This document shows positions 5,900 through 16,348 of a stretch of DNA of 64,000 nt, one piece after another; the first letter of the stretch is position 1, and each line of letters opens with the position of its first letter. The DNA is taken from the NCBI GenBank assembly GCA_030770425.1, contig JASJFT010000159.1, positions 16,650 to 80,649 on the forward strand. The letters run 5' to 3'. The position numbers were made by a program, and so were the translations under genes. The notes beneath the pieces are model-generated. The model ran no database searches. It had not been told where the DNA came from and saw only the letters and a list, made by a program, of their open reading frames with translations. The DNA is from Darksidea phi. Lineage: Eukaryota > Ascomycota > Dothideomycetes > Pleosporales > Lentitheciaceae.

Positions 5900-8234
5900 A
5901 TGGCCAACGTTGCTTCGCTTGGGGATGTGCGATACGAACACCATATGAGACATCGCGGCCGAGACAACCAGCATATGGTGGAACTGTTCTGGGTTGGAAT
6001 ATACACCATCACAGCTGTCTGCGCTACGGGGCGGATTCTCGTTTGGTGGGGACGACGATGGTGAGCCTTAGGCATCCGAGAGAAGAGCGCAACCTAACGA
6101 AAGTAGTAATCACAAGCAAACTGCGCGTGCAGGTACCACTCGGCTTCGTGTTCAGCTCGTTCGCTTGGTGGCATTCTTTAATGCCATCGGCCTGCTATCA
6201 ATCCACCTACCAAGAGGTCTATCCAGCATTTCTGTTGGGCGCGTCGTCACTATTCTAGCATACACGAGCGTAATCGCGGCTTTAATCGTTTCTGTCGATG
6301 CGCCCAGATTTTCCACTCATTTCATCGATGATGTGGCTTTTCGGGCTGCATGGGTTACCGTGACTCAAATCCCGCTCGTCTACTTCCTGTCCACGAAGCG
6401 CGGACCTTTGAACCTCCTTACTGGAATATCCTACGAACGGATCAACTGGCTACATCGATGGACTGGTTTTACACTGTTTCTCTGCGCCACTACTCACATG
6501 GCGATCATGATGTGCTCCGTATCCGTCGTGGAGCTAATGAAGTCGCCCGATGACGCGATGTCGATTGTTCGATATGGAGCGGCTGCATACGGTGCGCTTA
6601 CTTGGATCGCGCTTTCGAGTGTGCTCCCGTTGAGGCGATGGAGCTATCGGTTATTTTATATCAATCACTGCGCCTTCACATTGATGTTTCTGTGGCTCAT
6701 TGCGAGTCACGTCCCCAGCTACGCCCGGCTTCCAATCTACGCGTCAATCGCACTTGTTGCTACCGACAAGTGCCTGCGTGCATTCTGGTTTTTGTCAATC
6801 AACATCGCCGTCCGGCCGTTAAAGACAAAGTTATCCAAATCCACAAAGGGCTCAAGTCGACAGGTTTTGGGCATGGGACACCCTGTAAGAATGATGACAC
6901 CGTTCATTACTAATAGCAGTGTGTCTTCGGAAGAGACAACAACTATCATACGTATATCGGACGTCCCCTTTTCATGGAATCCGGGGCAGCATGTTCGGTT
7001 GTATCTGCCACAGCTAGGACTGGTTGGGATGCATCCATTCACGCCTGCAACTTGCTCAGATGTATTGAGCTCGCCATTCCCACCCGCGAAGGACAACGAT
7101 GCGGAGCACTACGGACTACTGCCCCACAATACAGCGCCATCAATTAACGACATGGTGCTGATGATAAAAGCGAAATCTGGCCTTACAAAACGACTTTCCC
7201 AATACCACTCCCAGTGGTTAGCCTTGCCCTGTCCGAATGCGACTCAGCCTTCGTCCACTTTGACGGCGTATATCGATGGCCCATACGGAAACCTGCCGGT
7301 TTGGGAAGAGTACGAAAACATCGTGCTCATCGCCACGTCGACAGGGGTTGCTTTTCTTTTGTCAATCTTGGACTACCTAGAGCAACTCTGTTTTGGTGGA
7401 CAAGAACGATTACGAACCCAGCAGATCACGTTTGTCTGGGCAAATCGACATATCGAACCTCAGTTGGAAGCTACTGTCACGGATATGCTATCAAGGCACA
7501 CAACGATACTACGAGAGTTTGATGTTACAGTAAAAGCAGAATTCTACGCAACATGTGAGCGCTCCAAGGATCTTCACAGCGGCGCAGAGATGCGCGAGCA
7601 TGATCCTTTTGCGCACTTACGGCGCCCACGTTCGAACTACTTTGCTGGAAGACCGCCTCTTCGCATCCGCAATCCAAACGCACTAGACGAGGAGGTGGAG
7701 GAGGAGGAGGAGGAGGAGGAGAAGGAGGAATGGTACGAGACAGCAGAAGAGGAGCACAATCTCAAGCAGATCTATCCAGGCGTGAACGAAATACGCAGCC
7801 GGTCGAGCTCCGAGACGTGCGTGTCATCTACGCTGATAGATGATGACTCGGATGGGTCTGAGCTTGGTTCGATGTTGGAGGAGCTCGAAGGTTCATGCTG
7901 GTCCCGGATGCCATCACTGCAGAGATCGCAATCCCACCAAGGTCTTGAAGTTAACAAGGTATGTGAGTGCGCGAAGCTTCGAAATGAGCAGAAGAAGTTC
8001 AAACAAAAGAAACTTCCTGGATATATATCGCGATTCTACGGCCAGCGACCGCCGATTGCCTCGGTCCTGTCAACGTCAATATCGCGAACGACTACAGCAA
8101 GGACCATGATCGCTGTCTGCTCGAATTACAGTGTAGTGACGGAAGCAAAGAGCGCGGTGTCCAAGATGAGCATGGATTTCGCTCGAGGGCGAACGGAAAG
8201 TAGGGTTACCCTATATACAGAAGGGTTTGGGTGA
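5900..8234 (+). CDS. ferric reductase family transmembrane flavocytochrome (FRE/NOX-type)
   Basis: Two exons, 5900-6060 and 6107-8234, joined by a 46-bp GT-AG intron with a CTAAC branch, give 762 residues. The ATG at 5900 is the first after an in-frame stop at 5852, and exon 1 supplies the first membrane span. The order is that of fungal ferric reductases: a ferric-reductase-like haem domain with the paired histidines of HRWTGFTLFLCATTH and INHCAFTLMFLWLIASH; an FAD-binding domain with the HPFT motif (GMHPFTPAT); and an NAD-binding domain with IDGPYGNLPVWEEYE and the nucleotide loop LIATSTGVAFLLSIL. The enzyme would move electrons from NADPH through FAD and haem to extracellular Fe(III) or Cu(II) at the plasma membrane. 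Between the NAD half-domains lies a long acidic insert with a near-pure Glu run (about 7694-7730) encoded by GAG/GAA repeats. An NADPH oxidase is less likely because the acidic insert and length fit FRE proteins. Confidence 0.9.
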
Positions 8235-12407: not shown

Positions 12408-13911
12408 ATGTCCGTGAGAGGTGCCGGAAGCGGTCGTGGACGCGGTCGTGGACGTGGGCGTGGTAGAGGAGGGACAACGGTTGTGCGTCATACATAACGT
12501 CGATAGCGTCAAGGAGTGTATAAAGTTAACTAGGTACCAGTGGGAATGGGAAGCCTACAAACCCGGCCCCGAAGTCTACAACAATCTCCACCGCCTCCGT
12601 AGAGCGCCGCCCGTCATCACACATACACTCCCCGACACCTGTCCTATACCGAACGCGCAGTCGCGGATTGTAAATCGCAGACAGACCGAAGACGAGTACT
12701 GCCGGAACTACTACACTGTGCACGTCACCTACCTACCATCCAACGATGCATCGAGCGGAAACGAGGAAGGACGGGAAGAGACTGTGCATGTGGATCTCAG
12801 TAGCATACTGCAATACGTATCGCGGAAAGAGCTTTCCCGCTTCGAAACTGCCGAGACCAATGCGGAAGCCGAGGCCAAAGCTGTGGCAGCGCGGGCAGAA
12901 GCAGAAGAACTTGCTAAGCGGAGGCTGGCGAAGAACGCCAGACCGCGTGGGATGGGGAGGGGAGGTGGAATGCTCAGCGAATTCGGTTTGGATTCTGAGG
13001 TGCGGACAAGAGGCCGTCCAAGGGGTCGCGGACGGCCTAGGGGTAGGCCTAGGGGCAGCTGGCGGGGAAGAGGAAGCGGGCTGGCTGCTCAGGCTGGAAA
13101 CGAGATGGCTGAAGATTTGATGTCCGAGGATATGATAGACGTTGAGCCATCAGAAGAGCTACATCGCCATGACGAATATCTACAGCACATGATTGTGGAG
13201 CCCAGTGAGGAAGAGTCGGAAGAGAACCTGCTAGTGAAGCCACCGTCGCCCAATGTCCTACGCTCGTCTTATGTCGCCAATAGTGCATTGTCCTTGTCCC
13301 CTGTTGCAGCACACGGAACTTTTGCGAAACCATTACCCCTGCGCCGCGAAGTACCCTACGTCGACGAGTCGGATATGGAGGAAGATGCTAGGTCTGTTTC
13401 TAGCGCGACCGCACAACTGCAGTTCAATGGGGACATTAGGGGGAGACAGGTTTTACACTCGGACAAGAGCGAGGAAGACCGACATCGAGCGAAAAGGCAG
13501 AGAACAGAGAGCACATCCTCTTCTCGTCCACGGGGCGCAGTGCCGTCTTCGAAACAACCTTCCTCGTTGGCGCGCACTCCAGAAAACGATACTGTCCCGG
13601 TACAACGAGCAACAAAGGTTGCACACACGACGACGAAGCAACCCGCGCATCACTCGCACTCAACCGATCATGACGATGTCGAAGCGGTTGAGAATGACGA
13701 GAATTCAGAGTCAGAAGAGTACGTCATAGATGACATCCTCGATCACTCCTACGAAGACGACAAGAAGTACTACCTGGTTAGATGGCAGGGCTACGAGGAC
13801 TCAAGTGACTGGGTGTTAGCAGAGGATTTGGGTGGCGCTTCCGAGATAGTGGCTGGGTATGAAGAGAAGGTTAGGCGGCAGAAAGGCAAAGAGAGGATAG
13901 CTATACGGTGA
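12408..13911 (+). CDS. AT-hook and C-terminal chromodomain protein
   Basis: Two exons, 12408-12482 and 12541-13911, give 481 residues. The 58-bp intron begins GTGCGT and has a TTAAC branch ahead of CCAG. Exon 1 encodes an Arg-Gly repeat tail. Residues about 40-150 form a conserved-looking globular part. A GRPRG-rich stretch (about residues 185-206) reads as overlapping AT-hook cores. A long acidic/Ser-rich linker follows. The chromodomain is at about 416-468, with EYVIDDILDH, YYLVRWQGYEDSSDW and EDL. The Tyr, Trp and Tyr expected for the methyl-lysine cage are present, although the usual Trp-Glu-Pro after the last strand is Trp-Val-Leu. A role in binding methylated histone H3 in chromatin is inferred from the domain. 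No chromoshadow, integrase or helicase domain is present, so it is neither a canonical HP1 nor a retrotransposon fragment. Confidence 0.82.
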
Positions 13912-14135: not shown

Positions 14136-14680
14136 TTATTCATGAACGCCAGTCTCATTATGACGATTCTTCAACCCACTGCAATCGGTGCAGTTCGAAC
14201 AACTAGTCCACATCAGCACCCACCTCTCCAACTTTTTCATTCCGAGATACTCACTTAATGCAGTCCGTGCAATTCGTGCAGTTCCGACACCCATCACATC
14301 CAGTGCAGTTGGTGCAATTCCGCGACCTGTCGCAGGAATCGCAACCGGTACAGTTCTTGCAGGATGTGCAATCTAAATGCGAGTAAGCAGGTGATTCTAG
14401 TTAGCGGTGTAAGATGGGGGGAAAGAGTGAGAGTAAGGAGTACCGTCACAGGCGGTGCAGTTTGCGCAATACGTGCAATCTATTTAGCGACCGATTAGAG
14501 CAGTAGGGGGAGGAATAGTAGTATGGGCGATATGAGCTATGGAGGAGAGAGAGAGATACCAATGCAGTCAGTGCAGTTTTTGCAGTCTTTGCAGTTTTTG
14601 CAGTTTCTGTTGTTTTGGGTTTTGGTAAGGGTCTTTTCGGAGGCGGGCATTGAGGTTTCGGAGGAAAGTGCGCAGCCCAT
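14136..14680 (-). CDS. cysteine-every-third-residue protein (CXX)n, four exons
   Basis: Reading 5' to 3' on the minus strand, exons 14680-14560, 14479-14444, 14372-14255 and 14202-14136 join to 113 residues. Every intron is GT-AG (80, 71 and 52 bp). From residue 27 to residue 99 every third residue is Cys, with a single exception at 69. The two residues between are mostly Thr/Lys/Ser then Asn/Asp/Gly, for example CKNCKDCKNCTDC. The triplet register is kept exactly across all three introns, and each intron interrupts the codon just before a Cys; this is strong evidence that the splicing is right. There is no signal peptide. The protein starts Met-Gly-Cys, which permits N-myristoylation plus palmitoylation at a membrane. 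I know no named family. Metal binding, metallothionein-like, is a reasonable inference from 24 regularly spaced Cys; a regular disulfide ladder is an alternative. The gene is intact, and a damaged relative lies upstream on the same strand. Confidence 0.78.
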
Positions 14681-14911
14681 TTTGATGGATGAAGGAGGAA
14701 ATGTTCAACAGAAGATTTAGTTATATTGGGGCTAGAGAAAAGGAGTTACAGGAGAGGCGGAGCTGGGTTTGGGTTTGGGTTCGGGTTTGGGAACTAAGGA
14801 TGAGTTGGTCAAGAGTGATACGGCGTGGTCGCGACGTCATCTCATGCAGACTGATAAGAGGACACGAATAGAGGGGCTCCATTTACGCCCCCCGAGGCCA
14901 CCTGCATATGG

Positions 14912-15728: not shown

Positions 15729-16348
15729 TCAACGACCTATTCGCCCTGCTCGTTCCTCGCCCCGTTCCGATTGGCAAAACCGATGCACCCAACCTACACA
15801 GCCCGGGCAGTCCTTACAATCGATGCAATTAACGCAATTTGTGCAGTCCTGGCACGCCATACAGTTCTGGCAAGCTGTACAATCCGAACAATCGCGGCAC
15901 TGAACGCAATTCGTACAATCTTTGCAGTTGGTACGTTCTTTAGAGGAAGTACAGTCCCTGCATGAGCGGCATTCGAGACCGTGGGTGCAGTCAGAAGAGG
16001 ATGGGCAGCGGGTGCAGGCCGTGCAGTCGGAGCGGTTTGTGGAGTGGGATCAGCTCGTGCAGTCTTTGTAGCCTGGTCGGGTTAGTCGAGTCAGTTAGAA
16101 TCAAGGCTTCGTAGGCCTACAGTTGCAGCTGTTATATTCTAGGAGATTGAATACAATGGGTAAGCTGACTCAGTCGCGGAATGGCACGTACCGGTGCAGT
16201 CAATGCAGTCCTTATTTAGCCCAATTGCATTGCGCGGCAGTTGCGGAGGTTGTGGATTAGCTAATCCGTGTTGTTCAGGATCCTGCGGCTCGTTGAGATT
16301 CATTTGGTGGGGCGGTTGTGGACCAGAAATTCGAGAGTTCTGCTGCAT
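15729..16348 (-). pseudogene. second cysteine-every-third-residue gene, in-frame TGA in a Cys slot
   Basis: Exon 1 is 16348-16192: an uncharacterised Gln/Pro/Asn-rich N-terminus ending DCIDCT, with donor GTACGT. The likely exon 2 starts at 16072 after an acceptor with two TAAC-type branch points, and continues GYKDCTS. A TGA follows at 16052-16050. Counting from the start codon, all Cys fall on residue numbers divisible by three, and the TGA is residue 60, exactly a Cys slot. After it the frame stays open to 15729 with over 20 further Cys, all in register (69 to 144). So one third-base change (TGC or TGT to TGA) most simply explains the stop. It is a young pseudogene, a truncated allele, a sequencing error, or readthrough. 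The last codons after the final Cys may instead belong to a small intron (GTAGGT near 15805). It is a tandem relative of the gene at 14136-14680 on the same strand. Confidence 0.65.

Follow-up and report, generated by a model that had tools for sequence, protein, structure and literature searches.

A four-exon gene on the minus strand of a 64,000-nucleotide (nt) stretch of Darksidea phi DNA (assembly GCA_030770425.1, contig JASJFT010000159.1, positions 16,650–80,649; hereafter the window) encodes a 113-residue protein whose body carries Cys at every third residue. These triplets are organized in 12-residue units. The gene anatomy, both periods, the C-terminal cap (C-cap) and the relatives described below were established from sequence. 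The protein is tentatively interpreted as a lipid-tethered, cytosolic beta-solenoid with a Cys core whose thiols would take up soft metals.

Gene model

The hand-made splice of the first-pass annotation, with four exons, 113 residues and a stop codon, was rebuilt as claimed (Table 1). All three introns have GT-AG ends (3/3). Cys is found at residue 3, then at 27, 30 and every third residue to 66, and from 72 to 99. The claimed C-x-x register was borne out: residues 27–99 hold 24 Cys in strict register, and the sole non-Cys slot, reported as empty, is Ser69. The whole protein has 25 Cys and one aromatic residue. Fillers had been described as restricted, mostly T, K or S at the first filler position; T and K hold, and D takes the place of S. 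GT-AG junctions were enumerated for introns of 40–120 nt, in ranges set around the proposed introns. This gave 1, 9 and 14 candidates per intron, each also allowed to be absent, or 300 combinations. Only the proposed set gave 24 in-register Cys (runner-up 21).

Two relatives lend independent support to the splice model. In P0001, 22 triplet Cys follow one another without interruption across the places where introns 2 and 3 align; P0003, judged from its protein alone, seems to continue into an intron where intron 1 would lie. Codon use in the array is varied: Thr uses 4/4 codons, and Cys, Asn and Asp both codons each. Tandem Repeats Finder detected no 36-bp tandem array, only 9- and 18-bp rows located in exon 1, in exon 3 (a short one) and in a tandem paralogue. 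Codon variety and the lack of a 36-bp array together argue that the 12-residue pattern is not a recent 36-bp DNA satellite. Judged on its sequence, the locus is very probably a real spliced gene. GCTAACT within intron 2 is a branch-like site, and a TGGGTT hexamer array (4.7 copies, 14764–14791) lies just upstream of the start codon.

Twelve-residue period

N-C-T occurs every 12 residues, at residues 35, 47, 59, 71, 83 and 95, and off-period also at 74 and 86. The repeat unit is a dodecapeptide with a consensus of about CTxCxxCxxC[AKRS]N. Rows of 12 from Cys36 read CTDCIDCTYCAN, CTACDDCTSCKN, CTGCDSCDRSRN, CTNCTGCDGCRN, CTNCTDCINCSN and CTDCSGLKNRHN. The period was tested by shuffling filler pairs within each array, and 130/137 sequences had the required minimum of 12 triplets. 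At a lag of four triplets, z was 3.6 for the window protein, 3.3 for the paralogue and 2.9 for P0001. Over lags 4 and 8, p ≤ 0.05 was reached by 13/16 testable fungal-like sequences versus 17/114 others, a count of proteins only, in which the 13 are related and hence not independent tests. The fungal-like group (n = 17) was selected visually on the likeness of N- and C-termini, 7 of the 17 being added after their period was seen. P0058, P0085 and P0088 were the three testable members lacking the period; P0100 fell short of the minimum length. Introns 1 and 2 interrupt two successive units at an identical offset, and exon 2 therefore spans precisely one unit. A comparison of these two introns for exon duplication found no significant similarity (z 1.1). 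The first-pass annotation overlooked the 12-residue unit, the paralogue, the common C-cap and how widely relatives occur.

Predicted fold

Across 133 arrays, Cys fills 2806/2906 slots. The 100 non-Cys slots hold 38 Ser and 23 L/I/V/M/F, the latter versus 522/5546 filler positions (p = 9e-5). Asp and Glu occur once each at these slots and Lys not at all, whereas Asp, Lys and Glu together make up 1552/5546 fillers. Mutation accounts for part of this pattern, since a single base change turns a Cys codon into one for Ser, Tyr, Gly or Arg. The slot following the last Cys is L/I/V/M/F in 48/129 arrays versus 64/516 neighboring positions (p = 6e-10). In AlphaFold models, two relatives form solenoids in which each triplet has one DSSP bridge residue. 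P0136 of Rheinheimera phage Barba17S (L044:2027–2704) has a pentapeptide array (PF00805) ahead of its C-terminal domain, which is 52% identical over 60 columns to that of the CxxC-array protein P0006; judging by this shared domain, one repeat array replaced the other.

Slot statistics, the hydrophobic cap slot and the pentapeptide module swap favor a Cys-inside solenoid over a free chain. A regular fold had been proposed by the first-pass annotation and is retained, but the polyproline-like fibre it offered gives way to a beta-solenoid of 12-residue coils, on the strength of the 12-residue period, the DSSP bridges in the two models and the buried character of the slots. A Foldseek search against the PDB gave no significant match, which excludes no fold. 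A Cys-core beta-solenoid is predicted for the window protein with good confidence. Its body would be a miniature right-handed solenoid of about six stacked 12-residue coils, with the four Cys of each coil pointing inwards. The N-C-T motifs would line up as parallel ranks of Asn and Thr on one face, and the last unit would cap the core with Leu.

Predicted membrane anchor and possible metal uptake

The N-terminal MGCALS fits the start consensus for myristoylation plus palmitoylation. M-G-C-x-x-S starts are also present in P0001 (MGCFPS) and P0003 (MGCAQS), in line with the earlier suggestion that the MGC start suits membrane anchoring. An N-myristoyltransferase family match above cut-off was found in the fungus's genome. 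By inspection, without a predictor, residues 1–26 have no hydrophobic stretch and no signal peptide, as had been claimed, and the description as an intracellular Cys-rich protein is judged right. A lipid anchor is predicted as likely. With Gly2 probably myristoylated and Cys3 palmitoylated, the rod would be tethered to a membrane on its cytosolic side.

On chemical grounds, 24 array thiols in the cytosol are likely to take up metal. We infer, with some reserve, that the thiol core may bind soft metals (Cu(I), Zn, Cd), each coil offering about four thiolates, and so serve as a metal sink beside the membrane. In engineered yeast, plant metallothioneins placed behind MGCTVSTQTI-GFP are described as reaching the inner plasma membrane and leading to metal accumulation (PMC5451056), a design of which the window protein looks like a natural version.

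Relatives

Other (CXX)n proteins, which the first-pass annotation had suggested seeking in fungi, were found, including fungal-looking ones (fungal and giant-virus labels of collection proteins are inferred). A search of 5.8 billion proteins returned 54 relatives of the window protein, and a profile search returned 182, the best 120 of which were covered. By sequence, P0001, P0003 and P0028 look like close relatives or orthologues. The MGCFPS start of P0001 is preceded by 44 residues of upstream reading. In all three, the array ends in C-S-[GN]-L-[KE]-N-A-x-N-x-x-G-V-H, and the window counterpart is CSGLKNRHNETGVHE. P0003 and P0028 continue past the cap into an acidic tail with PPPY, possibly an Rsp5/NEDD4 docking site; the window protein has no PPxY tail. 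Other N-termini occur in the fungal-looking groups P0005/P0060, P0020/P0048/P0055/P0057/P0065, P0058/P0085 and P0061/P0063, and P0062 and P0088 are among the relatives with a hydrophobic, transmembrane-like stretch ahead of the array.

Phage- or bacterial-type proteins account for many further relatives. P0075, in which a U-box is joined to the array, and P0109, with basic modules joined to one, are probable giant-virus proteins. Among bacterial and archaeal genomes, 27 loci were detected, some with degenerate arrays; by title, 15/27 belong to Patescibacteria-type lineages. L011, L016, L017, L024, L026 and L032 are bacterial proteins of about 317–581 aa with degenerate Cys-slot arrays, some from such lineages. 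Most of the six close a block with C-x-G-C-x-G-[LM]-[RK], reminiscent of the fungal C-cap. Plasmids gave no match, and phages a single alternative-frame match, in Flavobacterium phage FL-1 (L045:1433–1777). There the C-x-x array is matched in a frame other than the annotated one, which reads (A-P-V/I)n. Phage searches with P0059 and P0075 gave no match, and P0049 matched two phage records outside its array only. P0028 as query retrieved only itself, and P0001 gave no match against viral contigs.

Comparison with known families

Residues 13–101 match PHROG 15341 (E 1.6e-14), a family annotated as function unknown, as do 6/6 fungal-looking and 10/10 phage- or bacterial-type relatives tested. The match covers the array only and is thus partly compositional. 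By sequence the window array belongs with this family, but the fungal MGC start, the GVH cap and the 12-residue period fall outside it as far as tested. No Pfam family was found for the window protein or ten relatives, and no NCBIfam match for the window protein or eight relatives. Among seven further proteins, only P0136 (pentapeptide) and P0075 (U-box) were above the Pfam cut-off.

The best sequence match among solved structures was 1ezg (E 0.006), which is weak and composition-driven. This right-handed beta-helix represents the beetle antifreeze protein TmAFP (Tenebrio/Dorcus, 1EZG), described as having 12-residue coils with an inward residue at every third position (PMC8038014). The likeness lies in the 12-residue unit, a small residue at every third position (its inwardness inferred from the slots in the window protein), C-T in the same place and Cys in the core; homology is not claimed. 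Core slots of TmAFP are C, S, C and A, whereas all four of the window unit are Cys. The T-C-T ice-binding ranks of TmAFP are replaced by N-C-T at six periodic places, and TmAFP is secreted, whereas by inspection the window protein has no signal peptide, and its start is of the lipid-anchor type. The pentapeptide-repeat beta-helix (PF00805) is likewise a short-period solenoid, and its phage member shares a C-terminal domain with a CxxC-array protein. It differs in its period of five, A(D/N)LXX pattern and Leu/Ala core, compared with periods of 3 and 12 and a Cys core in the window protein.

Fungal metallothioneins are also small, Cys-rich and intracellular. Agaricus metallothioneins and characterized fungal homologues are described as carrying C-x-C (PMC12508003), whereas the window protein has 0 C-x-C, no CC, a strict register, a cap and a predicted fold. 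Heterocycloanthracin precursors of Bacillus (TIGR03601) share repeated Cys-Xaa-Xaa, and are reported to go with heterocycle-forming enzymes (PMC2674419). They are bacterial, with a leader peptide and modification enzymes. In the titles and abstract starts searched, with preprints and most subscription papers outside this scope, no paper on a fungal (CXX)n protein was recognized. The predicted all-thiol-core beta-solenoid has no described function in the libraries and literature searched.

Alternative explanations

The explanation closest to the metal-binding solenoid keeps the membrane tether and the fold but treats Cys as mere small core packing. The protein would then be a structural or interaction scaffold whose Asn/Thr face, or PPPY in relatives that have it, binds a partner such as an Rsp5/NEDD4-type ligase. 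We consider this a serious possibility, though not the preferred one. Some Cys of a coil are missing in several fungal-looking relatives, so a pure packing or scaffold role is almost as likely. Six columns of a seven-sequence alignment (A5) are invariant, N95, C96 and T97 among them, whereas relatives have G, T, S, E, N or L at other slots. The module swap with a pentapeptide array and the PPPY tails of P0003 and P0028 point the same way. However, Cys is held in nearly all slots of the 133 arrays even though the beetle coil, as described in PMC8038014, works with Ser and Ala, and the window protein itself has no PPxY tail.

An unstructured metallothionein-like chelator, in which CxxC pairs wrap metals with no preformed fold, is improbable. 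Small size, 25 Cys, a single aromatic residue, CxxC pairs throughout and the lack of a signal peptide are what such a protein would show. The absence of C-x-C and CC sets it apart from the metallothioneins described in PMC12508003, and a 12-residue period, a Leu cap and nearly charge-free slots are unexpected of a free chain.

Ice binding by the Asn/Thr ranks of a flat face, as by the Thr ranks of the Tenebrio protein, is very unlikely. The coil length and the top match to 1ezg suggest it, but that E-value is weak and composition-driven, the motif is N-C-T rather than T-C-T, and the protein has a lipid-anchor start and, by inspection, no secretion signal. It is more doubtful still that the array is an artefact of choosing one frame by hand in a low-complexity locus. 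The alternative frames of phage FL-1 and one weak genome match resembling the antisense of a low-complexity stretch are of this kind; against this, the start and cap recur in relatives in this same frame, a single splice set is best, and synonymous codons vary.

Least credible of all is a precursor of a Cys-heterocyclized peptide, as proposed for the heterocycloanthracins, the only published Cys-Xaa-Xaa repeat family recognized in the literature searched: the array lacks the Gly-rich make-up given for that family (PMC2674419), the protein has a shared cap and a lipid signal, and no NCBIfam match was obtained. YcaO is the enzyme family of Cys-heterocyclization pathways, and no YcaO match was found in the fungus's genome (control positive 5/14).

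Tandem paralogue and neighboring genes

A CxxC paralogue lies upstream of the Cys-array gene on the same strand (Table 1). Its first exon extends to 16192, followed by an apparent intron at 16191–16073 (GT-AG, by eye) and a CxxC exon at 16072–15729. An in-frame TGA at 16052–16050 falls on the Cys register, and D-C-T recurs every 12 residues beyond it. No MGC start is present. The paralogue is probably decaying, barring an assembly error at the TGA base. Reading this TGA as selenocysteine was set aside in favor of an inactivating mutation, the simpler account. With three protein queries, no further credible copies emerged among the best-scoring candidates in the 51.35-Mb genome; one weak match (L041) reads like antisense low-complexity DNA, and another (L043) has E 0.09 and 25% identity.

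The window has 27 open frames of at least 220 codons, ten of which were scanned. These included genes for a chromodomain protein, a DUF3533 protein and a ferric-reductase-like protein. The neighbors add no firm clue to the function of the Cys-array gene.

Table 1. Coordinates, in window positions, of the Cys-array gene, its parts and nearby features
Feature	Position	Strand	Remarks
Predicted N-myristoylation (Gly2, Ser6) and palmitoylation (Cys3) signal, MGCALSS	14660–14680	−	From sequence and consensus
Exon 1, 121 bp	14680–14560	−	MGCALSSET N-terminus and first CxxC triplets; donor G/GTATCT (boundary after first G)
Intron 1, 80 nt	14480–14559	−	Phase 1, offset 5 of a 12-residue unit
Exon 2, 36 bp	14479–14444	−	Exactly one 12-residue unit
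Intron 2, 71 nt	14373–14443	−	Phase 1, same unit offset as intron 1 in the next unit; P0001 continuous
Exon 3, 118 bp	14372–14255	−	CxxC array with single non-Cys slot, Ser69
Intron 3, 52 nt	14203–14254	−	Donor GTGAGT, acceptor CTAG; P0001 continuous
Exon 4, 67 bp	14202–14136	−	Array end, C-cap CTDCSGLKNRHNETGVHE, stop; cap common to P0001, P0003 and P0028
Cys array, residues 27–99	14181–14602	−	Broken by three introns
Tandem CxxC paralogue	15729–16348	−	Upstream of Cys-array gene; possible ATG at 16348
Ferric-reductase-like gene	6072–8231	+	PF01794, PF08022, PF08030
497-codon open frame	12418–13911	+	C-terminal chromodomain, RGRPRG repeats; adjoins 3′ end of Cys-array gene on opposite strand

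Implications

The lipid-tethered, metal-binding solenoid can be extended, speculatively and with low probability, to a membrane-bound metal column, in which four Cys per coil surround one soft metal ion or cluster and coils about 5 Å apart align the metals. The same thiol-core solenoid would then occur in fungi, bacteria, phages and probably giant viruses. CxxC arrays occur in fungal-looking proteins and are widespread among bacteria and phages, yet neither Pfam nor NCBIfam matched the class as tested. An all-thiol core in a 12-residue beta-solenoid would make this a further repeat class with no described function. Should it bind metal, it would be nature's equivalent of the metallothioneins that were anchored to membranes in yeast by design, and a genetically simple scaffold for arranging metals in a line.
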